Shown piece after piece: positions 13,019 to 25,592 of a stretch of 64,000 nucleotides of DNA (positions within the stretch are counted from its first letter, which is position 1; each line of letters starts with the position of its first letter). This stretch comes from Thiomicrorhabdus xiamenensis. Lineage in GTDB: Bacteria; Pseudomonadota; Gammaproteobacteria; Thiomicrospirales; Thiomicrospiraceae. Position numbers and translations under genes: made by a program. A model generated the notes under the pieces. The model had not been told where the DNA came from and did no database searches. It worked only from the letters and a program-made list of their open reading frames with translations. The DNA is taken from assembly GCF_013282625.1 (NCBI RefSeq), contig NZ_CP054020.1:992001-1056000 (forward strand), in the 5' to 3' direction.

Positions 13019-13024
13019 GGAATT

Positions 13025-13069
13025 TGGTAGCGGGGGCTGGATTTGAACCAACGACCTTCGGGTTATGAG
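13025..13069. repeat. att copy A: 45-bp 3' part of tRNA-fMet
   Basis: Identical over 45 bp to positions 25516-25560, the segment of the initiator tRNA gene from the anticodon to the CCA end. The identity stops abruptly after ...TTATGAG, so it is a partial tRNA copy and not a gene. It is the left boundary of element 1 and was the right boundary of the decayed element to its left. Confidence 0.92.
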
Positions 13070-13302
13070 TAAACTCTGGAATAACCACTATCTTATTGAT
13101 TTATAAAATAAACTAGCAATCACGCCACTTCACACTATGTCATAATTAGCAACGATTTTATAAGCCTCCAAATCGCTTCCATAAACATTATTGTCATAGT
13201 CCTTTACATAATTTCAATGCTACGTCCGACGGAAAAATACAAAGTATCTTATTATAGGTATAATTCTATATTGACAACAACATGACATTGAAGAGATTTC
13301 TA

Positions 13303-14769
13303 ATGAAAGAAGACGTCTATAATTTATTTCTCTACACAGATGATGCCATTTTTGTAAAAGAGTATGGGGTCTCAGTTCACACATTTTATGGAACAGATGA
13401 AGAAAAATCTGAATACTTAAAATCACACGTAATAACAGACTTTGAATCAGCCCAGAAATTTAAAATACCGAATAGGTTTAAAATGATTCAAGTGAATGGT
13501 GATGAAATTTCAGGATGTATGAGGATTGATTCGGCTTTTCAATCATTAAATATTGCAGGAGCAGCTTTTTTCTCAGAAGCAATGATTAAACTTAATGCTC
13601 CCGCTGAACCTTTGTATGTATGTACAGTAATTGAAAATGGTAAACCAGTAGGAATTATGAATACAAAAAAAAGCAAATTTAATGGCAATACAATGAATGC
13701 TTTTTTACGAAGAGGTATCGATACAAAATTATCTAAGGAATTGATAGATAAGGGTTACAACTTAAGTAAACTCAAGCAACTTAAAAATTCTGAACTTTCT
13801 AATCTTGGTTTAAATGACGACCAAATTTTATCTATTAATGAAGGAGGCCGCCCGCCTATTCCCTCTGAAACATATATCAAATTGCTATATGAATCTAAAC
13901 GAACATGTTGTGTCTGTAGGGATGCTACAAAACCAATTATTATCCATCATATTGAAGAGTGGAGCCAAAGTAAAAGTCATGACGAGTCAAATTTAGTTGT
14001 TTTGTGTTTAGAACACCATGACTTAGCACATACAAAAAAAGAATTAAGCATCGATCTCAGCAAAAAACAATTACGGGAATTCAAGACTAAATGGATAGAA
14101 GACGCGAAGACTTCTGATGCTGAGGCTATTCTAGGCCTAGTCTCTCACGATTATTCAAGATGGGATTATTTTAATCATAGACGAATTTATGAATTGTTTT
14201 TAGATCTTAATATTAATGCTGAGAACTTCAAAACATTTTCAAAACTAAAAGATGCTGGATATGTTGATGATTTAGGAATTCTCGAAATTTCGACTGTTCA
14301 GAAAATGAATGAAAATAGACGTTACATGTACGATGATGGAAATGGCTTTATTCTCGTTTATTATATGAAAGAAGTTTTTGAATCTGTTTTGGCAAATCTT
14401 CCAATCATTAACATAACGGACAAATTTGATCGAGCTCAAATTAATTCGTTATTAAGGCCTGGTAGTTTTATTGCTTTTCAAGCAGGATTTTATTACAAAA
14501 ACATAAACACATCATTATCAGGTACAGACCAACTACGTAGAGCTCATTACAAGAAAAAGGGGATAAAGATAGAATTTACGTTTCCTCCTTTTGAAGCAAC
14601 CAGCTCTTCATCACATTCTGATAGTTTAACGGGGCACTCTGTTTCAACGGTTATCTGTATAGTAAAATCGATTTACGATAAAGACGATTACTTAAATATT
14701 GATGTAAGTTGTTTGGCTATAGGAAGTTACTTTGAAAATTGCAGGTTCAAGCAAGATAAACGTTTTTAA
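13303..14769 (+). CDS. HNH endonuclease domain protein, cargo of element 1
   Basis: A 488-aa protein with an HNH nuclease domain in the middle (about residues 202-246): CCVCRD, then IIIHHIEEW, NLVVLCLEHH and DLAHTK. This gives the two Cys pairs and the His-His/Asn/His pattern of a zinc-supported HNH site. The N-terminal 200 residues and the C-terminal 240 residues match nothing I recognise; the last part is beta-rich with a conserved-looking RPGSFIAFQAGFYY stretch. The start at 13303 is preferred over an in-frame ATG at 13282 because AAGAGA precedes it. It sits in the cargo slot beside the att site, so a role in phage or plasmid defence is plausible but unproven. Confidence 0.75.
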   Translation: MKEDVYNLFLYTDDAIFVKEYGVSVHTFYGTDEEKSEYLKSHVITDFESAQKFKIPNRFKMIQVNGDEISGCMRIDSAFQSLNIAGAAFFSEAMIKLNAPAEPLYVCTVIENGKPVGIMNTKKSKFNGNTMNAFLRRGIDTKLSKELIDKGYNLSKLKQLKNSELSNLGLNDDQILSINEGGRPPIPSETYIKLLYESKRTCCVCRDATKPIIIHHIEEWSQSKSHDESNLVVLCLEHHDLAHTKKELSIDLSKKQLREFKTKWIEDAKTSDAEAILGLVSHDYSRWDYFNHRRIYELFLDLNINAENFKTFSKLKDAGYVDDLGILEISTVQKMNENRRYMYDDGNGFILVYYMKEVFESVLANLPIINITDKFDRAQINSLLRPGSFIAFQAGFYYKNINTSLSGTDQLRRAHYKKKGIKIEFTFPPFEATSSSSHSDSLTGHSVSTVICIVKSIYDKDDYLNIDVSCLAIGSYFENCRFKQDKRF

Positions 14770-14823
14770 AGCCAGATGCTAGACTGATTTAGTCACTTTT
14801 AAACATTTTAGGTATTGTAAATA

Positions 14824-15312
14824 ATGCTAAAAAATCTACTTAATTTTATATCCCAGCATGTACTAAAGCTAGCGTGGTTCACCATGCTGTTCATCCCCTC
14901 TATAGGTGGAATTCTTACCTATTTTGGATACGGTACCGCTTTTGCTAGATCTGGAGCCATTCTTGTCTGCTTTGCAATAGTAATCATTTTCTTTAACCAT
15001 GGAATAAATCGAAACATTGATTATTCCAAAACAGTTCTTGGGCGTCTTTCAAAGTATTCATTTAACCACAAGAAGATTAAAGAGGAGCTGGATGCAGAGC
15101 ATCAATATCGAACCCCCGTGTTAAATGATATTCAAACAAAATATAACGAACAATTAGCGGTGTTCATACAAGATTTAAGAAGCACTCACTCAAAAGCAGT
15201 TGATAGACTTGATGCAAAAAAAGCAAGATTGGTTTTAGTCGAATTCATGAGTGGACTTTTGGGGACTTTGATATGGGGATTTGGAGATTTGCTTGTCAGC
15301 CAACCTTGTTGA
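14824..15312 (+). CDS. Small membrane protein, cargo of element 1
   Basis: A 162-aa protein with two N-terminal hydrophobic helices (about residues 14-34 and 42-60), a charged helical middle (about 62-135) and a third hydrophobic segment near the C-terminus (about 138-158). No family is recognised. It follows the HNH gene by 54 bp on the same strand, so the two may form a unit in which one senses or cuts DNA and the other acts on the membrane. That pairing is inference from proximity. It resembles Pycsar TM effectors only in size and topology, and there is no cyclase beside it. Confidence 0.6.
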   Translation: MLKNLLNFISQHVLKLAWFTMLFIPSIGGILTYFGYGTAFARSGAILVCFAIVIIFFNHGINRNIDYSKTVLGRLSKYSFNHKKIKEELDAEHQYRTPVLNDIQTKYNEQLAVFIQDLRSTHSKAVDRLDAKKARLVLVEFMSGLLGTLIWGFGDLLVSQPC

Positions 15313-15354
15313 TGCTTTAAGCGTTTCTACTAAATTCTGGTTTCGTTGACATTT

Positions 15355-16203
15355 ATGAAATCCGCCGAATTCAAAGCAAGAATTTTAGAGCTCATTTTCC
15401 CTCCCGTTCTTGAAACCTACGAACGGGAGTTCCTGCCACTTTTTTTGAATATCTCAAAGCCAGCATTCCAGTCAATGATTGGGAAAGATGAATCAAATCC
15501 CTTCCAAAATCTTGATTGGGCTTTTTTGTACTTAGATGAAGAACAGCTTTACCAGCAAACAAGAGCCGAAGTTACCTCCAATATTTTTGCCGCTTGTGGT
15601 TTAAATGCCAACACTCAAGAAGAACCAAAAGAAATGAATGAAAGATTGGTACGATATATCTTGCTCCGCATTCAACGTTATATGAGGAACTTCTCTTTTG
15701 ATGATGAGCATAATCAAGAACTCGAATTACTCTCTAATCAACTTGGATTTGAACAAGAGTTTTTTGTCAAAGTGTCCATTGCGCAGTTCTACAATTCTTT
15801 GAGTGTTGTCCAAAACGGTAAACGCCTGAACTATTTCGTTAATCGTTTTATTGAAAGAGGGAAAAAATTAGACCTAATCAAAGCAGTCAAAGTAGACCCA
15901 TCAGTACTAGAGTTAGATGCGGTCAAAAATAGACTTAACGAGCTGAGTCCAGTTAAACGCCACAATTTTGATACCTCGATTTTATCAGCAGTTGAAAAAC
16001 CGTCTTTAACTCCTGACAAGCGCAAGAAATATCTAATGCTTGCCATCTTCCTTAATTTTGCATCTGCACTCGGTTTCTTGTCCAAACCCAACCCAATCAC
16101 CAATCCTAAGTTGCAACAATTAGCCATCAAGTTTGGCTTAATCACAGACTCTTATATCGATGATGAATTTAGAAAACTCGCTATCTACTACAGAAATCGA
16201 TAA
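15355..16203 (+). CDS. Conserved backbone protein of unknown function, element 1
   Basis: A 282-aa helical protein, counterpart of the gene at 22010-22846 in element 2. The shared core is IAQFYNSLSVVQN...KL...VKVDPSVLEL..V...L..LS in this copy, and the C-terminal KKYLML segment aligns too, while the N-terminal halves have diverged strongly. No domain is recognised. It always lies between the cargo and rep, so it may act in replication control, immunity or cargo regulation. An in-frame TTG at 15346 is the only earlier start, and neither start has a clear ribosome site. Conservation in both elements shows it is a real backbone gene. Confidence 0.65.
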   Translation: MKSAEFKARILELIFPPVLETYEREFLPLFLNISKPAFQSMIGKDESNPFQNLDWAFLYLDEEQLYQQTRAEVTSNIFAACGLNANTQEEPKEMNERLVRYILLRIQRYMRNFSFDDEHNQELELLSNQLGFEQEFFVKVSIAQFYNSLSVVQNGKRLNYFVNRFIERGKKLDLIKAVKVDPSVLELDAVKNRLNELSPVKRHNFDTSILSAVEKPSLTPDKRKKYLMLAIFLNFASALGFLSKPNPITNPKLQQLAIKFGLITDSYIDDEFRKLAIYYRNR

Positions 16204-16206
16204 ATT

Positions 16207-16242
16207 TCTGGGGGGTAACTTTACGAAAACTTAGCCCCCAGA
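16207..16242 (+). terminator. Hairpin after the backbone gene, element 1
   Basis: TCTGGGGGGTAA and TTAGCCCCCAGA pair over 12 positions with one mismatch around a 12-base loop, four bases after the stop codon. The bases after it (TTCTTTAT) form only a weak U-tract. It may terminate or attenuate transcription into rep. Confidence 0.5.
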
Positions 16243-16320
16243 TTCTTTATACCCTGCCATTTCATAATTTTCTCCAAGAACAAATGTTCTATTTTTCGAA
16301 TAATTGAATTGGAGATTGTT

Positions 16321-16860
16321 ATGAAATCTAACAAGACTACGGAACAACATGAAGCGCGTAAGAGTGGGGGCTTGCAGGAGCGCGCAGGCTCTGCGCGCCC
16401 TCAAGCCACCTCGCGAACGTGCAACAAGGGTACCTCACCTTGTAAGACAGTACCCCATACATACCAAAACGAACAAATCATCACTCCGTTACGAACGGCA
16501 ATAGACAGCTTATACCTAACGTATCGCGGAACGATTTACTCAAAAATTAATGACCAGCTTGAACACTTAAAACAGATTGCTGGCAATAAAACACCTTATC
16601 CAACCTCGGATGCAGTCTTCAAGGTTCACGGTCATTGTTTTGAGGTTAGGCCGTCTGGTGCCAAAAACTTTGCTTATGTTCTGCAAGATAATTGGTTCTA
16701 TATAAAAATTTCTTCGTCTAATGCGACCACTCTCCCTTTGGCATCAGTCCAGATCAGTAGTGAATTGCTAACACACCAGCCTTTAAAAAGGATTCTGAAC
16801 GACCTCAAGAAGATCATTTCTACCATTGGTCATATCGAAGGGGAGGATGAATCATGCTAA
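16321..16860 (+). CDS. Replication initiation factor, N-terminal part (split rep), element 1
   Basis: A 179-aa protein equal to the N-terminal part of the single 415-aa rep protein of element 2 (22964-24211). The start at ATG 16321 has GGAG six bases upstream. The first 30 codons contain the 75-bp hairpin block; after it the sequences match in PLRTAIDSLYLTYRG, FAYVLQDNWFYIKISS and VQISSELLT. The frame ends at TAA 16858-16860 inside an overlap with the next gene (ATGCTAA), exactly where the element 2 protein continues into its SRLDLCMDF motif. This half lacks the RFD and YDK catalytic-type motifs. Confidence 0.75.
   Translation: MKSNKTTEQHEARKSGGLQERAGSARPQATSRTCNKGTSPCKTVPHTYQNEQIITPLRTAIDSLYLTYRGTIYSKINDQLEHLKQIAGNKTPYPTSDAVFKVHGHCFEVRPSGAKNFAYVLQDNWFYIKISSSNATTLPLASVQISSELLTHQPLKRILNDLKKIISTIGHIEGEDESC
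16351..16425 (+). repeat. 75-bp conserved block with 16-bp bulged hairpin, element 1
   Basis: This block is identical to 22994-23068 at 73 of 75 positions, while the coding sequence on both sides has diverged widely. Its centre (16369-16407) folds as GGCTTG/CAAGCC, AGG/CCT and GCGCGCA/TGCGCGC around a GGCTC loop, 16 base pairs with two single-base bulges. Strong DNA conservation plus an inverted repeat inside a rep gene is what a rolling-circle origin or oriT nick region would look like. That assignment is inference. Confidence 0.8.
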
Positions 16861-17597
16861 ATCCTCTAATCAGTCGTTTCGATATCTGCTTCGATTTTTT
16901 CTCTAATACCTTCTCGTTTGATGAAGTATCAGACCGGGATTGGGTTACTCAAGCTCAGCAGATAAATAGCTTTTTAATCAATGGTCAGCGTTCTGGATTT
17001 AAGTTTGGCAAACAGGGCGTTGTTTGTCGTATTTACGATAAAACCCGTGAGATCAAAGAACAATCTAAAAAGTTCTATCTCTATGACCTCTGGAAATCTC
17101 AAGGATGGGATGGAGAATCCATTGTCTGGCGTATTGAATTCGAGTTTCATACCGAAGTTTTAAAACAGATCGGATTGCGGGAAATCGAAAAAGCGATAAG
17201 CAATCAAGCAGAACTCTGGGCGGCAGTCACCAAACACTGGCTAAAACTGGTTATTCCAAATCCAAACGATAGTAACCGTTCACGTTGGCAAGTTCATCCT
17301 GTCTGGGAAGAGGTTCAGCAAGCGACTTCACTTGGAGCAGAGCCAATTGTCAAAGAAGTGGCAAAAGTCCGTTTGCCATCCAGCGAAACGCTGTTTGTTA
17401 ATGGGCTTGGCTATTTAATCTCGTTTATGGCATCCAGACGAATTACGAATTTTGAAGAAGGGTTAAAAGCCTATTCAGAAGAAGCCGAAAATTATTACGA
17501 CTTCCTTGGTAAGAATTTAAAAACCGTACTCAAGCAAAAGCTCAATGAGCGTGCTAAACGGTTCAATATCCCTTTAGAGGAGTTGGATTATGACTGA
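16854..17597 (+). CDS. Replication initiation factor, catalytic part (split rep), element 1
   Basis: A 247-aa protein matching the C-terminal part of the element 2 rep. It starts in the ATGCTAA overlap, with a strong GGGGAGGA ribosome site seven or so bases upstream. It holds ISRFDICFDF, VCRIYDKTREI and VWRIEFEF, which fit the replication-initiation-factor family (Rep_trans, which includes rolling-circle Rep proteins and MobT/NicK-type relaxases). The C-terminal FVNGLGYLISFMA region is conserved with element 2. The ribosome site suggests the split is functional and the halves are translationally coupled. A recent frameshifted pseudogene is the alternative. Confidence 0.75.
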   Translation: MLNPLISRFDICFDFFSNTFSFDEVSDRDWVTQAQQINSFLINGQRSGFKFGKQGVVCRIYDKTREIKEQSKKFYLYDLWKSQGWDGESIVWRIEFEFHTEVLKQIGLREIEKAISNQAELWAAVTKHWLKLVIPNPNDSNRSRWQVHPVWEEVQQATSLGAEPIVKEVAKVRLPSSETLFVNGLGYLISFMASRRITNFEEGLKAYSEEAENYYDFLGKNLKTVLKQKLNERAKRFNIPLEELDYD

Positions 17598-17904
17598 TGC
17601 ACTGCTATCCCTAAAAGAAGTTGCTCAACTGCTTGGCTTTCATCCCGAGACTCTGCGAAGGAATGTTAAACGCTACAGTTATCCGCATTACAAGATCGGA
17701 GGGGAGCTACGCTTTAAGTTGGAGGAATTGCTAAACGCAACCCGAGTGGGTAATAATGATAGTCGGCGTGATTGCGTTGACGAAAAAGGAGAAGACTTAT
17801 GTCACTCTACAAACAACGCAACTCAAAGTATTGGTGGTGTAAATTCACAGCACCAGACGGAACGGTTATACGACAATCTACTCGGACTGAAAACAAAGCC
17901 CTAG
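17590..17904 (+). CDS. HTH (excisionase/AlpA-type) protein overlapping integrase, element 1
   Basis: A 104-aa protein. Residues 5-50 (LSLKEVAQLLGFHPETLRR... through YKIGGELRF) are a MerR/HTH_17-type DNA-binding domain, as in excisionases. It overlaps rep by 8 bp at its start and the integrase by 106 bp at its end. Its C-terminal tail, which is read from the same DNA as the integrase N-terminus, still resembles the element 2 homologue (...ER.Y..LLGLKT). It probably directs excision or represses the operon. This role is inferred from family and position. Confidence 0.75.
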   Translation: MTDALLSLKEVAQLLGFHPETLRRNVKRYSYPHYKIGGELRFKLEELLNATRVGNNDSRRDCVDEKGEDLCHSTNNATQSIGGVNSQHQTERLYDNLLGLKTKP

Positions 17905-18833
17905 CGGCTGAGTTTGAAGCGACCCTGAACTACAACCTGTATCGACAGGCTCTGTTCGGGGAAAGGGCGGAAATGTCGTGGCGCGAAGCGGTTGTCAAAT
18001 TCATCACAGAATCAGAAACCAAAAGCCCGAAAGATAATATTTCACTCTTTCGACTTTTAGACCCTTACTTCGGGCATCTGAAACTACATGAGATTAACGG
18101 CAAACACATCGAGCAATTAATCGACACCCGTCAAAAACAAGGAGTGAAAAATTCCACGATTAACAAGTCACTCGAAAAAATTAGAGCCTTGTTTAATCTG
18201 GCAAACAAGAAATGGCGTGTAAAGTGTGATCCGCCTTACATAAAACTTCTTAGCACTCCTAGAATGCGTGTCCGATGGATTACGCATAATGAAGCGTCAA
18301 ACCTTTTAAAACACCTTCAGGAGCATACGAGAGTCATGGCGCACTTTACTCTGGAAACAGGGTTGAGAGAATTCAATGTCACTCACTTGCGTTGGGATCA
18401 GGTTGATCTGGCAAAAGGTGTTGTCTATATAGAAGGTGATGATGTTCTCAAAGACGGTAAACCGTATTTGGTTGTGCTGACTGATTCGGCAAAGGAAATT
18501 ATCCGAAGCCAGATTGGAAAGCATCATACTTTTGTATTTACCTACAGAGGTAAGCCCGTTAAAAAAGCGGGAACTGATTCATGGCGAAACGGACTTGAGA
18601 AAGCAGGCATAACAAACTTCCGCTGGCATGATCTTCGTCATACTTGGGCGAGTTGGCATGTTCAAAATGGAACACCCTTAGAAGTGTTACAGGAACTTGG
18701 CGGCTGGAAGGATATTAAGTCTGTTCAGAAATATGCTCATTTCAATGTCGATACATTGAGAGGCTATGCAAAAGGATTGGGCATAGTATCGGGCATAGAA
18801 ACGAAAAAAGCCACTATGGTAAGTGGCTTTTAG
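17799..18833 (+). CDS. Tyrosine recombinase (integrase), element 1
   Basis: A 344-aa phage-type integrase. The N-terminal arm (SLYKQRNSKYWWCKF..PDG), a core-binding domain and the catalytic domain are all present. Catalytic residues are visible: Arg in LETGLREFNVTHLRW, HDLRHTWASWH (His-x-x-Arg and His/Trp), and the Tyr nucleophile in [18 protein letters not shown] precedes the ATG. The stop lies 33 bp before att copy B, the usual place for a tRNA-targeting integrase. It should insert the circular element into the 3' part of tRNA-fMet. Confidence 0.92.
   Translation: MSLYKQRNSKYWWCKFTAPDGTVIRQSTRTENKALAAEFEATLNYNLYRQALFGERAEMSWREAVVKFITESETKSPKDNISLFRLLDPYFGHLKLHEINGKHIEQLIDTRQKQGVKNSTINKSLEKIRALFNLANKKWRVKCDPPYIKLLSTPRMRVRWITHNEASNLLKHLQEHTRVMAHFTLETGLREFNVTHLRWDQVDLAKGVVYIEGDDVLKDGKPYLVVLTDSAKEIIRSQIGKHHTFVFTYRGKPVKKAGTDSWRNGLEKAGITNFRWHDLRHTWASWHVQNGTPLEVLQELGGWKDIKSVQKYAHFNVDTLRGYAKGLGIVSGIETKKATMVSGF
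18804..18831. terminator. Bidirectional hairpin at the integrase end, element 1
   Basis: AAAAAAGCCACT and AGTGGCTTTT form a 10-bp stem with an ATGGTA loop that overlaps the last integrase codons. On the minus strand it ends in a T6 run and lies just past where the tRNA 3' end would be, so it could have terminated the tRNA transcript when this element was tRNA-proximal. Confidence 0.7.
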
Positions 18834-18866
18834 ATTAGCTAAATACATGATTTAACTAAAGAAATT

Positions 18867-18911
18867 TGGTAGCGGGGGCTGGATTTGAACCAACGACCTT
18901 CGGGTTATGAG
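18867..18911. repeat. att copy B: 45-bp 3' part of tRNA-fMet
   Basis: Second partial tRNA copy, identical to 25516-25560 over the same 45 bp (two further bases also match the tRNA). It forms the junction of elements 1 and 2. The 5' half of the tRNA is absent, so it is not a functional tRNA gene. Confidence 0.92.
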
Positions 18912-19089
18912 CCACTATTTTTAACAAATTCAACAGCTTAACAACGCTCTTTAATGCTTTATCCTATTTATAACTACTCAAACCCATTCCTTTTTTTAGT
19001 GTGCTTTCAAACATAAAAATATCTTTTTTTCTACCAAAAGTTATACTTACCCATTCTAGAAAAGACATATTTTAACTTAAAGGAAATTC

Positions 19090-19911
19090 ATGTACGAAGA
19101 CAGAGTCATCGCTTTTATAGACATACTCGGTTTTGGATCACTTGTAGAAAGTAGTGCAGATGATTTCGTAATAGTCCAATCTCTTGTTGACGCACTTAAT
19201 CAGCTCCAACCAGATAAGATACAAAAACAAGCTTTTGGCAGCATCAACTATGAACTAATTCCCAAAGAAAATATTGTAGAAGTCGAAGAAGTTTTTGATC
19301 GGATAGCTGAACTTATGCTCAAACAACATCCTATTGAAGTGAGCTATTTTTCTGATTCCATAGTTTTATCAGCATTGTCCAGTGATATTCTAGCAACTCA
19401 AAATATGCTTGAGCTAATTGCAAAAATTAATATTATTTTATGGGAAAAACATTCACTCCTTCTTAGAGGAGGAATTACTTTCGGCAAACTACTTCATTTA
19501 AAAAATGGTCCAATGTTTGGACCAGCTATGAACAGAGCCTATTACTTAGAGTCACAAGAAGCTATATACCCAAGAATTCTAATCGATTCGGAATTTTTAG
19601 ATGCTTACCGAAAAAACGAGAGTTTCAATATCCTAGAACCATTATTTGGCCATGATGACGATACCGGATATAAATATATTTCTTTAGGAAGCTCTTACAA
19701 ATACATTTTAAATCATTCATTTATAGCTGGTTCTATGCCTCCAATCACATATGAATATAGTGAGAATTTTTCCAACACTTCCCAAAAGTTAAAAGCAATT
19801 CTGGAAAACATTAAAGGACAACCGTTTGAAGAAAAATATATATGGCTAATTAGTGATGTATGCAAACAACTGGAAATGACTGATTTGAGCCGTTACAAAT
19901 CGGAGAAATAG
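19090..19911 (+). CDS. Class III nucleotidyl cyclase, Pycsar-like
   Basis: A 273-aa soluble protein with the class III cyclase pattern: AFIDILGF carries the first metal-binding Asp (Asp11), SYFSDSIVLS the second (Asp89), LLRGGITFG the following strand, and FGPAMNRAYYLES the N-x-A helix. In adenylate cyclases that helix reads NxAxR; here the +4 position is Tyr and an Arg sits at +1, so the catalytic Arg is displaced or absent. Bacterial uridylate/cytidylate cyclases of the Pycsar anti-phage systems have this compact, regulator-free form. Their effector is normally the next gene, and here the next genes are a methyltransferase and a nuclease. Nucleotide specificity cannot be called. AAAGGAAATTC precedes the ATG. 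Confidence 0.68.
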   Translation: MYEDRVIAFIDILGFGSLVESSADDFVIVQSLVDALNQLQPDKIQKQAFGSINYELIPKENIVEVEEVFDRIAELMLKQHPIEVSYFSDSIVLSALSSDILATQNMLELIAKINIILWEKHSLLLRGGITFGKLLHLKNGPMFGPAMNRAYYLESQEAIYPRILIDSEFLDAYRKNESFNILEPLFGHDDDTGYKYISLGSSYKYILNHSFIAGSMPPITYEYSENFSNTSQKLKAILENIKGQPFEEKYIWLISDVCKQLEMTDLSRYKSEK

Positions 19912-20027
19912 TAGTTTAAAAAGTGCACTTTATTGGCGATTACCTCTTCGTAGAAGACGTATCCCAATATTTCTGCTTTAATACATATAATTTCAGACTA
20001 ACAGCAACTAAGACCAAACTAATCAAG

Positions 20028-21104
20028 ATGACCTCCCAAAGTAAAACAATAAGATTAGAGCTAGACTCTTACAAGAAAAGCACAAGTTACGCGCCATTAT
20101 TTATGCAAGGCGACTGCCTTAAGGTACTTAAATCAATGCCCGACCAATCAATAGATATGTGCATTACTAGTCCTCCATATTGGGGGCAAAGACAATATGA
20201 GAACGGTGGAATTGGACTAGAAAAGAATCATAAGGAATATATTAAGGATCTGTGTGATATTTTTCTGGAGTTGAAGCGAGTGCTTAAAGATGAAGGTTCA
20301 TTCTGGCTAAATGTTGGTGACACATACAAAAACAAGGCTCTTTTAGGTATTCCGTGGAGAATAGCTTTTGAATTAATCGACGAACAGGGTTGGATACTAA
20401 GAAACTCTGTAATTTGGAACAAGGTGAAAGGAGCACCGGACAACTCTAAAGACAAATTAAGAAATATCCATGAAAATGTTTTTCACTTTGTAAAAAAATC
20501 AAAAGGATATTATTACAATGCTGATGCAGTAAGAAAAAAGCCTCGAGAAGCCAAAGTAGAAAATGGTGCAGTTGTTTCAGCAACAGGTGTTAGTGGTGTA
20601 AGGTATAAACGCCAAATTGAGCTTTCTACCGATTTAAATATGGAAGAAAAGAAGAATGCTTTGAATGCTTTAGATGAAACACTTGAAAAAATCAGTAGAG
20701 GAGAGCTGTCCGATTTTAGAATGATCATTCGTGGCCAACAAAGAGCCACACACTCAGATTCGGAAAAAGTCTCTGGTCGAGCAAAAGAATTAAGAGATAA
20801 AGGTTTCTGTATTCTTAGATATCATCCTAAAGGGAGTAAACCTAGCGATGTTTGGGACATCTTACCTGAAGACACCCAAAAACGTAAAAAGCATTACGCA
20901 GCATATCCTGAAGATCTTTGTAAAATCCCTATTCTTGCAACTTGTCCTCCTGATGGAATTGTATTTGACCCTTTTTGTGGAACGGGAACAACAATGTTAG
21001 TTGCAAAATCCTTTAATAGGAAATCGATTGGTGTTGACTTATCTAAAGAATATATAGAATTAGCAGAGGAAAGATGTAGCGAATGGCATCAGCAAACAAT
21101 ATAG
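20028..21104 (+). CDS. DNA methyltransferase (beta class, TSPPYW motif)
   Basis: A 358-aa amino-methyltransferase. The catalytic motif IV TSPPYW (residues 47-52) comes before the AdoMet-binding motif DPFCGTGTT (from about 313), the order of the beta class. TSPPY is most common in N4-cytosine enzymes. The target-recognition region lies between (about 130-290). ATG 20028 is preferred, because the open frame extends upstream to GTG 19923 but those 35 residues do not look like a methyltransferase N-terminus. It overlaps the next gene by 22 bp, which marks it as the protective partner of that nuclease. Confidence 0.88.
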   Translation: MTSQSKTIRLELDSYKKSTSYAPLFMQGDCLKVLKSMPDQSIDMCITSPPYWGQRQYENGGIGLEKNHKEYIKDLCDIFLELKRVLKDEGSFWLNVGDTYKNKALLGIPWRIAFELIDEQGWILRNSVIWNKVKGAPDNSKDKLRNIHENVFHFVKKSKGYYYNADAVRKKPREAKVENGAVVSATGVSGVRYKRQIELSTDLNMEEKKNALNALDETLEKISRGELSDFRMIIRGQQRATHSDSEKVSGRAKELRDKGFCILRYHPKGSKPSDVWDILPEDTQKRKKHYAAYPEDLCKIPILATCPPDGIVFDPFCGTGTTMLVAKSFNRKSIGVDLSKEYIELAEERCSEWHQQTI

Positions 21105-21937
21105 CAGAAATATATGGCATTTCAATTTATAACAATACAGCAGATTGGAATAATCTTATTGAACAACAACAGTGTCCATACCTAGGTCGTAAATGCCTAA
21201 AAAATCGAAAAAGTGAAGCAGAACTAACAATTGGAACATGTTCTGTAACATACGGAAAAGATAAAAAAGATGTGATTATCTGCCCTCACCGCCTACTCGA
21301 AAGAAGGCAAATTTTTACTGACTGCCTCCATCTACTGAACTCTCATGAGCCTGGAAATGAATTGCATATCGTAGCAGAAGTACCAATCCCTGGGGGTAAC
21401 GTGGATTATTTCCTTGTTTCTACGCGTGACCGAAAAGTAAAAGATTTCGTTGCGATAGAATTGCAAACTTTAGATACCACCGGCACCGTTTGGCCTTTTA
21501 GGCAAAGATTTGTTAATTCAAAAGGAATTTTGGTTAAGCCAGAAGACCTCAACTCAAAAAAATCTTTTGGAATGAATTGGAAGATGACGGCTAAAACAAT
21601 TCTAGTTCAGATGCATCACAAAATTGAAACATTTGAGCACATAAATAAACACCTTGTTTTAGTGGTACAAAATCATTTATTGGATTACATGGCAAGTGAG
21701 TTTTCTTTCGCACATATAAGTGATAATGCAAGAATTGGTGATTCAATGCACTTTCATGCCTATCAACTAAATGAAGCTTCTGGAAAGCTCCGCTTAAACT
21801 TAGTTGATCGCAAAAGCACGGATGCTGAGGGTATTTCTAAATGCTTGGGATTGGAAAGTGAAGCCCGCATCGAGTTGACCGAGATTATTGAAAAACTCGA
21901 AGCCAAAATTTCAGACTCAACATTAATGACTATATAA
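21083..21937 (+). CDS. NotI-like type II restriction endonuclease
   Basis: A 284-aa protein. Four cysteines (31, 38, 53 and 67, in CPYLGRKC, GTCSV and ICPHR) match the Cys4 metal-binding module found at the N-terminus of NotI. A PD-(D/E)xK-like core follows, with GNVDYFL (Asp near 106) and FVAIELQT (Glu near 125), where Gln replaces the usual Lys. NotI cuts GCGGCCGC; this enzyme's site is not known, but a GC-rich palindrome is plausible. It begins inside the methyltransferase gene, so the pair is cotranscribed. It may also stabilise the element by post-segregational killing. Confidence 0.78.
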   Translation: MASANNIAEIYGISIYNNTADWNNLIEQQQCPYLGRKCLKNRKSEAELTIGTCSVTYGKDKKDVIICPHRLLERRQIFTDCLHLLNSHEPGNELHIVAEVPIPGGNVDYFLVSTRDRKVKDFVAIELQTLDTTGTVWPFRQRFVNSKGILVKPEDLNSKKSFGMNWKMTAKTILVQMHHKIETFEHINKHLVLVVQNHLLDYMASEFSFAHISDNARIGDSMHFHAYQLNEASGKLRLNLVDRKSTDAEGISKCLGLESEARIELTEIIEKLEAKISDSTLMTI

Positions 21938-22009
21938 GTAGATAACAACACACTGAATCGCCACTAATTTATTAGACATTTTTTTGATTGCTTTACGAGA
22001 GATGTGAAA

Positions 22010-22846
22010 ATGAATGCTCATGAAGAAGGTATTGTAAATATGCTATGCAATTTTCTTCCTGAGTTTCTCCAGCAAGCAGAAGAAACTATTAACTGGCTTC
22101 ACAACCCTTCAAAGCTGCTTCTTGAAAGCAGAGATCAAACTGGTGTATTTACAGCTAAGAACTTGAATTTTTACAAGTTATATCTAAATCCAAAATCATA
22201 TTACGAAGAATTTAATGATTTGCTGGTTCAGCAAGTACTCGAAGACATTAAAACAGAACCTCCAAGCCCACCATTACCTCTAAAAAAGGCAAAAGCTAAC
22301 TTTTATCAAGCGATTGATGAATTAGAACAAGAACTTTATGTAAAGGTAACCAATAATGAACCATTAGCGCCATTCGATAAATTATTCCTCGAACGGGCAA
22401 TTGCTCGTTTTTATGAATCTCTATCTCTAATCCAAAACAAGAAAGCACTGTCTTCACTTCTTCATGAAGCCATTAACCAAAAAAATCAAAAACTTCTTCC
22501 CCTCGCAGTTGGTATTGACCCCAATATTCTGAAATTGGCTGAAGTCCAAAGTTTTTTAGACTCATTACCTAAAGAACAAAGACTTGGACTGGAAGAAAAG
22601 ATAATCAAAGCACAAAGAACACCAATTCTCAGCCATTCTAAGACTTGTAAATCAAAAAAATTTCTTTTGTACTTAAGTATTGTTGATTTCATTGGGGTTA
22701 TCAAAGGCCCCTATGCACTGAAATTTAACTCACATAAAAGAATTGCTGCTGATTTAGGAGTGATACCCGATATTCGGGATGTTGATGATGTTAATTACTT
22801 CAACAAGTTATACAACTTAGTAAAAAAATCTCATCAATTACAATAA
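22010..22846 (+). CDS. Conserved backbone protein of unknown function, element 2
   Basis: A 278-aa helical protein homologous to 15355-16203. The aligned core is IARFYESLSLIQN..K.L......KLLPLAVGIDPNILKL..V...L, with matching FY.SLS.(V/I)QN and DP..L.L positions in element 1. The first 100 residues differ between the copies. No known domain. It occupies the same place in both elements, just before rep. ATG 22010 is preceded by GAGAG; a GTG two codons earlier is possible. Confidence 0.65.
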   Translation: MNAHEEGIVNMLCNFLPEFLQQAEETINWLHNPSKLLLESRDQTGVFTAKNLNFYKLYLNPKSYYEEFNDLLVQQVLEDIKTEPPSPPLPLKKAKANFYQAIDELEQELYVKVTNNEPLAPFDKLFLERAIARFYESLSLIQNKKALSSLLHEAINQKNQKLLPLAVGIDPNILKLAEVQSFLDSLPKEQRLGLEEKIIKAQRTPILSHSKTCKSKKFLLYLSIVDFIGVIKGPYALKFNSHKRIAADLGVIPDIRDVDDVNYFNKLYNLVKKSHQLQ

Positions 22847-22863
22847 ATCTATAATCATTTCAA

Positions 22864-22889
22864 GGAATAGAATCTATTAATTCCATTCC
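22864..22889. repeat. Hairpin between backbone gene and rep, element 2
   Basis: GGAAT-a-GAAT and ATTC-c-ATTCC pair around a six-base loop, 18 bases after the stop codon. It occupies the same place as the G-rich hairpin of element 1 but has an unrelated sequence, so a structural role such as attenuating rep transcription is possible. There is no U-tract. Confidence 0.4.
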
Positions 22890-22963
22890 GTGTTTCAAAT
22901 CGAATAATTCTAGAAACTCAATTCCAGCGACGTCGTTCTCGTTAACTACAGAAGGAATTGAAT

Positions 22964-24211
22964 ATGTCTAATTCAAACACAAATCCAGAAATTGAAGCGC
23001 GTGAGAGTGTGGGCTTGCAGGAGCGCGCAGGCTCTGCGCGCCCTCAAGCCACCTCGCGAACGTGCAACCATTCAGGTGCGGCACTTAGTAACACAGCACC
23101 TGCAAAATACATAAATAACCAAAACATTAAACCACTACGCTGTGCTGTCGATAGTTTGTACTTATCGTATAGGGGCAACATAACACCCCAGATAGAAGAA
23201 CTATTAACCTTCCTGAAGAACATGGCTCAACATACCGATCCTGAGATTGCTTCAGAAGCCTATTTGCATTTCTTTGAGCATAAATTTCAGGTCATGCCGA
23301 AAGGGGCAGGTAAGTTCTCATTTGTTCTAAAAGACAATTGGTTCAATATCCAAGTATCCAGTGGTAAGTCTTCATCCGTTCCACTTGCCTATGTTCAGAT
23401 CAGTAGTGAACTGCTGACCTTTATGGAACTGGATGAAATCCTCATGCACCTTGATCAAATTATTGATCGAATTGGAACGGTAAAAGGGCATGCGGCTGTC
23501 AGTCGTCTCGATCTTTGTATGGACTTTGAGTGTTACTCAAAATTCAATGTTGAAGCGATTGAGATTAACCAGTGGAAAACCCGAGCAAAGCAGATCGACC
23601 GTTTCCATCAAAACAAACGACCGTCTGGTTGGCGAATTGGTAAGGGCTTGATTATGGGAAGGCTTTATAACAAGTCTCTCGAAGTCCAGAAATCCAAAAA
23701 AGATTACCTTCTTCCATTATGGGAAGCTTCCGGTTGGTCTGGGGTAACGGATGTTTGGCGTGTGGAATTTCAGATCCGTCGAGAGTTCTTAGCTAATGTC
23801 GGCTTAAAACATCCTGATCAGATAATTAAGTTGAGTCCTGCTATTTGGAAATACGCTTCAACGAATTGGCTTCAACTGGTCACACCAACGGAAGACTCTA
23901 ATGAATCTCGTTGGCCTGTTACTGAAGCCTGGCAAGAGATTGCTCAAGCTTGCACGAATGTGGAGTGCCAGGCGGTTAAACCCGTAGTCAAAAAGCGACT
24001 GCCAAATGATCAATATTTATTTGTGAATGGTCTGGCGGCGATCAGTTCCTTTATGGCGAGAGAAGGGATTTCTGACTTTGGTGAAGCATTAGGCGAGTTC
24101 TTACATGAAGCTGAGCACTATCATCTGTCCAGAGATCAGACCATGGAAGAGTATCTAAAGCTTAAAGCGAAAGAAAAGACGCTTCGCTATAACACTGAAT
24201 TAGAGGAGTAA
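22964..24211 (+). CDS. Replication initiation factor / relaxase-like Rep, element 2
   Basis: A 415-aa protein of the replication-initiation-factor (Rep_trans) type. After a hairpin-encoding leader (residues about 10-36) come AVDSLYLSYRG, KDNWFNIQVSS, AAVSRLDLCMDF, MGRLYNKSLEV and VWRVEFQIR, the motifs shared with the two-gene version in element 1. Family members nick one strand through a tyrosine to start rolling-circle replication or, as MobT/NicK relaxases, transfer. It is therefore the likely enzyme acting at the embedded hairpin. ATG 22964 has AAGGA at 22953-22957. The HTH gene follows after 6 bp. Confidence 0.8.
   Translation: MSNSNTNPEIEARESVGLQERAGSARPQATSRTCNHSGAALSNTAPAKYINNQNIKPLRCAVDSLYLSYRGNITPQIEELLTFLKNMAQHTDPEIASEAYLHFFEHKFQVMPKGAGKFSFVLKDNWFNIQVSSGKSSSVPLAYVQISSELLTFMELDEILMHLDQIIDRIGTVKGHAAVSRLDLCMDFECYSKFNVEAIEINQWKTRAKQIDRFHQNKRPSGWRIGKGLIMGRLYNKSLEVQKSKKDYLLPLWEASGWSGVTDVWRVEFQIRREFLANVGLKHPDQIIKLSPAIWKYASTNWLQLVTPTEDSNESRWPVTEAWQEIAQACTNVECQAVKPVVKKRLPNDQYLFVNGLAAISSFMAREGISDFGEALGEFLHEAEHYHLSRDQTMEEYLKLKAKEKTLRYNTELEE
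22994..23068 (+). repeat. 75-bp conserved block with 16-bp bulged hairpin, element 2
   Basis: The second copy of the block at 16351-16425, differing only at its 10th and 17th bases. The hairpin (23012-23050) is unchanged in stem and loop. Synonymous positions are also conserved, which protein selection alone would not do. Confidence 0.8.
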
Positions 24212-24217
24212 TACCCC

Positions 24218-24562
24218 ATGAGTGAGCAAACCAAATTGCTCACTCTCTCCCAAGCGGCTAACTATTTAGGCTGTAATCCTGAAACGGTTAGAAGACATGC
24301 TCAAGCAGGCAAAATCCCTGCGGCAAAGCTTGGCAGAAAGTGGGTATTTATCGAACAAGACCTTGCACAATATCTCAGAAATCAATATTCTACGCCTGAG
24401 AGTGTTGTGCAAGTTGTTGACAACAATGAGGAATCATTATGTCAATCTACAAACGAAACACTATCTGGTGGGTTGAATTCATTGCACCAGATGGAACGAG
24501 AATACAGCGCTCTACTGGGACTGAAGACCGAAAGCAAGCGCAAGAATTCGAAGCAAAGCTGA
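24218..24562 (+). CDS. HTH (excisionase/AlpA-type) protein overlapping integrase, element 2
   Basis: A 114-aa protein whose first 55 residues (LTLSQAANYLGCNPETVRRHAQ...AKLGRKWVF) form an excisionase-type HTH domain. It overlaps the integrase gene by 124 bp. The overlapping tail shares STN......G..NS.HQ.ER.Y..LLGLKT with the element 1 homologue, although it is read from integrase-coding DNA. It is probably an excision factor or operon regulator. Confidence 0.78.
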   Translation: MSEQTKLLTLSQAANYLGCNPETVRRHAQAGKIPAAKLGRKWVFIEQDLAQYLRNQYSTPESVVQVVDNNEESLCQSTNETLSGGLNSLHQMEREYSALLGLKTESKRKNSKQS

Positions 24563-25461
24563 AACATGATTTATGGCGAGTTTATCACTTAGGTGAAAAG
24601 CCTCGTATGTTATGGAAAGAAGCGGTGATTCGTTTCATGCGTGAAAAGCAGAATAAGGATCAGACTAACGAGATCAGCATCTTCAAATACCTTGATCCTT
24701 ATTTTGGTCATATGTATGTCGATGAAATTAGGCGCATGCACATTGATGACATCATTCAGCAACGACTGAAAGAGGGCGTCAGTAACGCAACGATTAATCG
24801 ACTACTTCAGAAACTTAGAGCGGTATTAAACAAAGCACACAAAGAATGGGAGGTGAAATGTGATCCTCCTTTCGTCAAACTCTTGAAGGAACCAAAGAAG
24901 CGGGTTCGATGGCTGACTGAAAATGAAGCCTATCGACTCATTCAAGCTTTACCTGCTCACACGGCAGATATGGTTGTCTTCTCTTTAGAAACGGGCTTGC
25001 GAGAATCCAATGTCACTTTGTTGCGTTGGGATCAGATTAATTTAAGCGAGCGAGTTGTCTTTATCGAAGGTGACGATATTTTAAAGAGTGAACAGGCCTT
25101 TGTTGTTCCATTGTCAGAAAAGGCGGTGGACGTGCTGAAAAGACAAATTGGAAAGCATACTGAAAGGGTTTTCACTTATAAGGGGAATCCAGTTCGTAGA
25201 GCGAACACCAAAATGTTTAAAAGTATATGCAAAGAAATTGGTTTGGAGGATTTTCGCTGGCATGATCTTCGTCACACATGGGCGACTTGGCATGTCAATA
25301 GGGGAACGCCTTTGGAAGTTCTGCAAGAGTTAGGCGGCTGGTCTGACTATAAGATGGTGAAGCGATACGCTCACTTTAGTCATCAGCATTTACATAAGTA
25401 CGTAAATAGCACCCAAAATCAAATCTCTACAAATTTCCCTACATTGGCGAAATTTGGGTAA
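24439..25461 (+). CDS. Tyrosine recombinase (integrase), element 2
   Basis: A 340-aa integrase closely related to the one at 17799-18833. Catalytic landmarks: LETGLRESNVTLLRW (Arg), WHDLRHTWATWH (His-x-x-Arg, His), MVKRYAHFS (Tyr). The start MSIYKRNTIWWVEF matches the usual integrase N-terminus, so the long overlap with the HTH gene is real. GAGGAATC lies upstream of the ATG. The stop lies 54 bp from the intact tRNA-fMet gene. It is the presumed enzyme for integration and excision at the 45-bp att core. Confidence 0.93.
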   Translation: MSIYKRNTIWWVEFIAPDGTRIQRSTGTEDRKQAQEFEAKLKHDLWRVYHLGEKPRMLWKEAVIRFMREKQNKDQTNEISIFKYLDPYFGHMYVDEIRRMHIDDIIQQRLKEGVSNATINRLLQKLRAVLNKAHKEWEVKCDPPFVKLLKEPKKRVRWLTENEAYRLIQALPAHTADMVVFSLETGLRESNVTLLRWDQINLSERVVFIEGDDILKSEQAFVVPLSEKAVDVLKRQIGKHTERVFTYKGNPVRRANTKMFKSICKEIGLEDFRWHDLRHTWATWHVNRGTPLEVLQELGGWSDYKMVKRYAHFSHQHLHKYVNSTQNQISTNFPTLAKFG

Positions 25462-25465
25462 TAAA

Positions 25466-25510
25466 AAAGCCCTGACTGATTTGGCTCTAGGCCGCGCCAG
25501 TCAAGGCTTT
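25466..25510 (-). terminator. tRNA-fMet terminator carried by the element end
   Basis: Read on the minus strand, AAAGCCTTGACT ... AGTCAGGGCTTTTTT is a stem with a T6 run a few bases after the tRNA CCA. On the plus strand it closes the integrase gene, with a weaker T-tract. The same arms recur at the relic att copy A. Confidence 0.72.
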
Positions 25511-25515
25511 AAATG

Positions 25516-25592
<77 letters not shown>

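Follow-up and report, generated by a model that had tools for sequence, protein, structure and literature searches.

A bulged hairpin kept inside the rep genes of two tandem Thiomicrorhabdus xiamenensis elements is probably part of the replication origin of a mobile-element family

Two tandem elements, E1 and E2, occupy the 3′ end of a tRNA-Met gene in the window analysed here, a stretch of 64,000 nt from the genome of the gammaproteobacterium Thiomicrorhabdus xiamenensis, and their replication initiator genes (rep) share a 75-base block. Why should these bases be nearly identical in two genes that have diverged on both sides of them, and what could the block do? The gene set is the same in both elements and consists of cargo, gene X, rep, a gene for an excisionase-like HTH protein and a gene for a tyrosine integrase (Table 1). 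Within the 52-nt direct repeats (att) at their borders, the copies starting at 13020 and 25511 are 94% and 98% alike, respectively, as compared with the copy at 18862. The integrase, the excisionase-like gene and the repeats at tRNA-Met are those of elements that integrate site-specifically with an integrase of their own, and relatives of E1 and E2 are integrated, with repeats, at tRNA-Asn and tRNA-Phe. The cargo of E1 includes an HNH protein and that of E2 a type II methyltransferase together with a NotI-like restriction gene (19923-21937). Fourteen ORFs of the two elements were scanned against Pfam and PHROGs, with no convincing match to a phage structural, packaging, coat or assembly family and no match to a coupling protein, a T4SS or another conjugation family; the excisionase-like protein of E2 gave a weak match (E 3e-4), through its HTH, to a terminase small-subunit family. 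E1 and E2 may be satellites without packaging or morphogenesis genes of their own.

Table 1. Positions of the two elements and of their features in the 64,000-nt window.
Feature	Position	Strand	Remarks
E1	13020..18913		between tRNA-Met 3′-end copies att 13020-13071 and 18862-18913
Core gene X, E1	15346..16203	+	conserved; upstream of rep; pairwise homology to 11 other copies
repN of E1	16321..16860	+	N-terminal half of two-ORF Rep; carries motif N′ Asp
Long bulged hairpin, E1	16351..16425	+	proposed recognition or single-strand-origin module
HP2 of E1	16428..16455	+	GGGTAC, 16-nt loop ending GTAAGACA, GTACCC; proposed Rep nick hairpin
repC of E1	16854..17597	+	C-terminal half (RxD, YxKxxE, RxE); overlapping start; ribosome-binding-like GGGGAGGA upstream
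Excisionase-like HTH protein, E1	17590..17904	+	
Tyrosine integrase, E1	17799..18833	+	PF00589, E 7e-30
E2	18862..25562		tandem with E1; att 18862-18913 and 25511-25562; ends in intact tRNA-Met
Core gene X, E2	22004..22846	+	conserved; pairwise homology to other copies
rep of E2	22964..24211	+	Rep_trans-type initiator; residues 1-54 of model predicted disordered
Long bulged hairpin, E2	22994..23068	+	73/75 identical to E1 copy
HP2 of E2	23073..23102	+	CAGGTGC, 16-nt loop ending GTAACACA, GCACCTG; proposed Rep nick hairpin
Excisionase-like HTH protein, E2	24218..24562	+	
Tyrosine integrase, E2	24439..25461	+	PF00589, E 4e-34
tRNA-Met	25516-25592		intact copy at end of E2

The two copies of the block align without gaps (probability of at least 73 matches in 75, 3e-14 at 60% identity), as compared with 241 matches in 456 aligned bases (53%) in the N half of rep and 350 in 708 (49%) in the C half. 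The block corresponds to codons 11-35 of a Rep_trans-type rolling-circle initiator; both differences are non-synonymous, with no change at about 19.7 synonymous sites, and its GC content is 68% as compared with 38% in the elements. Folded as DNA, the copies gave −27.0 and −25.8 kcal/mol (z −4.2 and −3.9), with none of 200 shuffles as good, and the complementary strand gave z −3.0, with one of 200 shuffles as good. The structure put forward in a preliminary description of this DNA, 16 bp with a GGCTC loop and two bulges, can be drawn, the bulges being of one base each and both on the 5′ arm; the predicted fold has one extra pair in the loop and weaker outer pairs, 27-29 pairs in all. That description was right in its claim that selection acts on the structure of the nucleic acid, and no homologue was seen in which the peptide was conserved and the DNA was not, the block peptide being unconserved in the wider Rep alignment as well. 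Its proposal of a nick site or similar signal embedded in the gene of its own initiator stands in part: the block looks like a replication-origin element so placed, and is itself probably not the nick site, for which an adjacent hairpin (HP2) outside the 75 bases considered there fits better.

The core of HP2 starts three (E1) or six (E2) bases past the block and is far more widely conserved, with the pattern GGTRC, 16 nt ending GTAACACA, GYACC. In 16 sequences, counted with the rep-less element L004 and without L007 (HP2 identical to that of E2) and L014 (other stem), four of the five core pairs are invariant and the fifth varies between G-C (11 sequences) and A-T (five), none being broken; the next outer pair is A-T in six, G-C in six, G-T in one and unpaired in three. 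HP2 lies in frame, and in 16 proteins, counted with L007 and without L004, the swap of the fifth pair is read as Ala..Ala in 11 and as Thr..Val in five, with no mixed case (Fisher p 2e-4, uncorrected for kinship), base pairing thereby forcing coupled amino-acid changes on the protein. Exactly this G-C/A-T double change separates the HP2 core of E1 from that of its sister L003. The loop resembles, as we assume, the nick sequences of ICEBs1 and pT181.

When 369 gammaproteobacterial genomes were searched, the exact HP2 pattern matched 10, the same 10 as the Rep profile, and the reversed pattern matched none; HP2 is in this respect a DNA signature, which in this one sample marked exactly the genomes with this Rep. 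Among the 13 matches of the Rep profile, HP2 is in place in 11, that of E2 having one loop base outside the pattern, and no HP2 is present in L028 and L030, both of G362 and without the N-terminal part of Rep. A clear Rep relative, L033 of G496 (E 7e-105), has an 8-bp stem with a 16-nt loop in the same place, without GTAA[CT]A and without a strong long hairpin. In a large collection the pattern alone is unspecific: six contigs of the viral collection matched, one of them a true member (L065), and the other five, lying in or opposite unrelated, mostly phage-like genes, were rejected as chance.

Relatives were also sought with Rep itself. A single scan of the genome contig collection gave three loci, all from Thiomicrorhabdus; Rep searches of viral contigs (P0001, A4) gave no relative, and neither P0001 nor the Rep of L065 gave one by tblastn against phages. 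From the 53 genomes in the order of G362 came one more HP2 member, L085, together with the distant Rep loci L087 and L088, and the orders of G143, G228, G074 and G210 (two to four genomes each) held no further genome with Rep. The Mesotoga plasmid pTHEBA.01 (1,724 bp), the Rep of which found only itself by tblastn against plasmids, carries in the 5′ part of its rep a long hairpin together with GCACCC..TAGTAATAC..GGGTGC, a little upstream of the codons for GIDSLYL. Both hairpins lie early in rep, as in E1 and E2, from which it differs as a free plasmid of the Thermotogota without integrase.

The long hairpin was followed among these relatives by a fold test that set the strongest 60-nt DNA fold upstream of HP2 against every window of the same gene that starts at HP2 or later; windows straddling HP2 were in neither set. 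The test covered 17 reps, each with HP2 or the Mesotoga hairpin: 15 from proteobacterial genomes, one from a viral-collection contig and one from the 1.7-kb Mesotoga plasmid, with L033, L028, L030, L053, L058, L060, L086, L089 and the other distant loci outside the set. The strongest fold preceded HP2 in 17/17, none of the 29 to 198 later windows per gene being as strong; in L031, which ends at a contig end (323 nt), the long hairpin barely beats its own shuffles (z −1.1). The gap between the long hairpin and HP2 is 1 to 32 nt, except in L022 with 113 nt, and counts six bases in E1 and nine in E2 from the last pair of the long hairpin.

The sequence of the block is recognisably common only to five Thiomicrorhabdus reps. 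When the 75-nt stretches before HP2 were compared in 136 pairs, 14 scored above all of 40 shuffles, and 10 of these are all the pairs among the five; four came from the remaining 126 (L023-L026, L008-L020, L024-L026 and L065-L085), where about three are expected by chance. Between E2 and L008, the reps of which are 69% identical, six of eight terminal-stem pairs have changed on both sides and still pair, a score of double changes reached by none of 500 shuffles. Between E2 and L007, from another species (protein 95% identical, rep-wide pS 0.41), the block shows one synonymous change where about eight are predicted. To judge from these comparisons, it is the structure of the long hairpin and not its sequence that is conserved among the relatives; and since the block is nearly unchanged from E2 to L007, pairs have changed from E2 to L008 and the likeness is largely confined to the genus, the hairpin is kept constant inside one type and gives way to another from type to type.

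The sister of E1 by rep is L003, from Thiomicrorhabdus sp. zzn3, the hairpin of which is different, and E1 has a hairpin of the E2 type, which suggests that the hairpin module has been exchanged between elements; recombination between neighbouring elements would be the simplest route. A recent and functionless gene conversion between the neighbours would account for the different hairpin of L003 and for the sharp drop of identity at the block edges in sliding windows, but it leaves unexplained both the scarcity of synonymous change in the block of another species and the persistence of a strong fold in other sequences, and we consider it scarcely credible as the whole cause. Exchange may explain the source of the E1 hairpin, not why hairpins are kept.

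The protein encoded around the two hairpins was compared with the Rep_trans motif list, namely N′ Asp, RxD, YxKxxE and RxE (PMC5714925; catalytic motifs also PMC6499999; these and all papers below are cited from extracts). The RxD, YxKxxE and RxE columns and the motif N′ Asp are invariant in 11 of 11 aligned reps (D64, R182/D184, Y236/K238/E241 and R267/E269 in P0001 numbering). At the start of motif IV, listed as W/L, these rows have V, and for the listed motif II, T/SxY/ExG, the alignment has an SGWxIG-like stretch and no clear copy of the exact motif. None of the 11 reached the PF02486 cut-off or matched any Pfam Rep family, repC of E1 staying below threshold with 22.8 bits as compared with 29.6, and NCBIfam gave no Rep family for seven Rep sequences scanned. 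Weak PHROGs matches were to "endonuclease" for the Rep of E2 (6e-8) and to "replication initiation protein" for repC (2e-6). With an AlphaFold model of Rep (mean pLDDT 71.9, pTM 0.61), the top four Foldseek matches were all chains of 4CIJ (RepSTK1), with E 1e-7 to 5e-7, probability 1.00 and rmsd 7-8. Motifs and modelled fold make a divergent Rep_trans endonuclease the best reading of this protein. The parts of Rep that the two hairpins encode both fall within residues 1-54, where pLDDT is less than 50 and disorder is predicted; since this peptide would be disordered, the hairpin DNA may be free to follow the needs of an origin.

In 32 distant Rep loci, near-duplicates (L044-L046; four Thermus phages) included, GTAA[CT]A was sought at the 3′ side of a hairpin loop. 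On the rep strand, in rep or at most 900 nt before it (a limit set for this count only), such a hairpin was found in 16, the Mesotoga plasmid and the four Thermus phages among them, the other 16 having no counted site, and on the other strand one was found anywhere in 2/32; two sites were seen and left uncounted, in L055 (ORF mis-placed) and in L087 (1349 nt before rep). With a slightly different motif, 37 distinct strings were observed on the two strands of all loci (492 kb), some of them overlapping and several clearly chance, as compared with four such hairpins in a single mononucleotide-shuffled copy. Across the distant loci only strand and motif are constant, and because the strand is constant the rep-coding strand is probably the nicked one. 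The filamentous Thermus phages OH3, OH16, Zuza8 and Zuza27, counted as four since a fifth record is a second one of OH3, have a gene II that is distantly homologous to Rep, at 29-34% over 24-30% of the query. All four share an identical 27-base GTAACAC hairpin about 600 nt inside gene II (L093 1483-1509; L094, L095, L096), a candidate phage origin; they differ from E1 and E2 as infectious phages and in the mid-gene place of the site. The extract of the phiOH3 paper names gene II as replication endonuclease and mentions no origin site. Among the matches listed for rolling-circle literature with the letters GTAACAC nothing was relevant, and the titles and abstract openings of the literature matches listed describe no element of the present type, which is no proof of absence.

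One relative has kept the hairpins and lost the gene. The 3.1-kb element at tRNA-Asn in G003 (L079 10849-14026, also L004) carries an integrase and one cargo gene (523 aa) and neither the rep body nor xis; its rep is reduced to the block, a complete HP2 and some 12 additional bases, a region with a predicted fold of −28.5 kcal/mol. In the rep frame a TAA stands directly before the block and no ATG occurs from this stop to the block end, GTG and TTG codons being present. It is a single case of natural rep deletion and could be recent.

These loci bear on the idea that the hairpins act in mRNA, regulating the translation or stability of rep. Such a role would suit sense-strand structures close to the start codon, and by eye the 5′ leader also appears to contain an inverted repeat that flanks the ribosome-binding site. 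This role is hard to reconcile with hairpins that persist without a rep gene in L004, with a site that precedes the first start codon of the rep ORF by 54-648 nt in nine of the 16 distant loci (L034-L036, L038, L039, L044-L046 and L050) or some 600 nt inside the phage gene, and with the finding of no known Rfam family at either hairpin and no terminator-like site at the E2 copy; an RNA-level element is therefore very improbable.

A bipartite rolling-circle origin near the 5′ end of the initiator coding sequence, similar to that of pT181 and with the block as one of its two modules, is the explanation that we consider likely, from sequence and by analogy. For it speak the fold test, the stem covariation, the set of genomes matched, the sites at half of the distant loci, the motifs and fold of Rep, the rep-less element and the pT181 precedent; the results that count against it are L033, L028 and L030, the other half of the distant loci, the spacing in L022, the z of L031, the different order in pT181, the low specificity of the HP2 pattern alone in the viral collection and the failed PF02486 cut-off. 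The structures, their covariation, position and strand and their link to this Rep family are direct observations.

The analogy with pT181-family origins suggests HP2 as the nick hairpin and, as its variable partner, the long hairpin. Origins of that family have a conserved nick stem-loop and a plasmid-specific repeat, the double-strand origin lying inside rep (PMC4797284, PMC5703833; also PMC5775427). In pT181/pC221-family origins, as in E1 and E2, a nick-type stem-loop and a second, element-specific repeat thus lie in the rep coding region, and the counterpart of the conserved stem-loop is HP2 in 16 reps and the like hairpin of the Mesotoga plasmid. The YxKxxE tyrosine, the acidic residues and the fold (4CIJ being the best match) are likewise common to Rep and the initiators RepC, RepD and RepSTK1. 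In pT181, in contrast, the specific repeat of about 19 bp is 3′ of the nick, whereas here the long imperfect hairpin is 5′ of HP2 in 17/17; E1 and E2 further differ in an origin coded in a disordered N-terminal extension, in being chromosomal elements with an integrase, in the loop GTAACACA and in a Rep that falls short of PF02486. The Rep-Arvir origins of betapleolipoviruses, which also integrate, are alike in a conserved hairpin with an upstream inverted repeat, unconserved in sequence and spacing, and differ in belonging to archaeal viruses, in lying downstream of rep and in a Rep with a wHTH domain (PMC13107129).

Nicking, Rep binding, replication and circle formation, which we infer from sequence and analogy, could proceed as follows. 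The integrase and excisionase would cut the element out as a circle, Rep would open HP2, which is probably the hairpin that it cuts, and the conserved tyrosine of YxKxxE would cut the rep-coding strand in the GTAACACA loop, leading-strand synthesis then being primed from the 3′ end at the nick. The role of element-specific module would fall to the long hairpin immediately 5′ of the nick. Most likely Rep would use this structure to recognise its own origin; or else the second strand would start there, since no other part of the displaced strand would be exposed as single-stranded DNA so late.

The latter role belongs to an explanation in which Rep recognises HP2 alone and the long hairpin is a single-strand origin or a signal for ssDNA packaging. 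We regard it as doubtful, although the position of the long hairpin 5′ of the candidate nick in 17/17 reps would make it late to be displaced, it stays as a long imperfect hairpin while its sequence varies, the known ssoA is a large, host-restricted structure (PMC5703833) and the relatives of Rep include the filamentous-phage gene II. Packaging finds no coat or assembly family to serve it in the 14 scanned ORFs, and the near-identical hairpin sequence of E1, E2 and L007 fits sequence-specific recognition equally well.

The hairpin pair might instead be an oriT, with Rep as relaxase and the elements mobilised by a helper conjugation system, which would be compatible with a replication origin. 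The MOBT relaxases of Tn916, ICEBs1 and ICESt3 are related to Rep_trans proteins (PMC6499999), their nick site is likely in a stem-loop (PMC7563843), and MobT/Rep_trans proteins occur in 45 of 144 streptococcal IMEs (PMC5704250); catalytic motifs and residence in integrated elements are further points of likeness (PMC6499999, PMC7563843). MOBT systems differ in being conjugative elements of Firmicutes with a T4SS and a relaxase with an N-terminal HTH, the oriT of ICESt3 lying between genes (PMC6499999, PMC7563843). Here the Rep N-terminus is predicted to be disordered and gave no HTH family match in Pfam, the 14 ORFs hold no coupling protein or T4SS family, and three plasmid relatives are typed as non-mobilizable; we judge an oriT unlikely.

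Within the bipartite origin, the long hairpin could be an exchangeable specificity cassette, one nick hairpin being kept while recognition hairpins are swapped. This is a tentative proposal, under which the swaps would take place inside the disordered Rep N-terminus, E1, with the cassette of E2 next to a split Rep, might be replicated by the Rep of E2, rep-less elements like that of G003 might depend entirely on the Rep of another element, and the GTAACAC hairpin would mark the nick throughout one Rep family, from proteobacterial islands to a Thermotogota plasmid and filamentous Thermus phages. In the sequences scanned, neither Pfam nor NCBIfam recognised the Rep of these integrative elements, and for elements of this class the hairpin pair would be a compact origin open to experiment. 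HP2 would provide a route to rep-less relatives and to the question of how origins change specificity.

Three further features of these loci were observed. Gene X, directly before rep, encodes about 250-285 aa and evolves fast; its 12 copies in 12 elements are joined by pairwise homology, and both window copies gave no convincing Pfam, PHROG or PADLOC match. The leaders at 16260-16323 and 22905-22963 and those of L003, L007 and L008 show, by eye, an apparent inverted repeat around the ribosome-binding site, TCTCC..GGAGA or AATTCC..GGAATT, with changes on both sides, which a computed alignment of the leaders does not line up. In E1 (16321-17597) and in L003 (1471-2756) two overlapping ORFs encode Rep, with the break at the same place in both, overlaps ATGCTAA and ATGTTAA and GGGGAGGA upstream. 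Because both halves look to be under purifying selection (pN 0.18-0.20, pS 0.66-0.76), a two-chain initiator is likely in these two elements.
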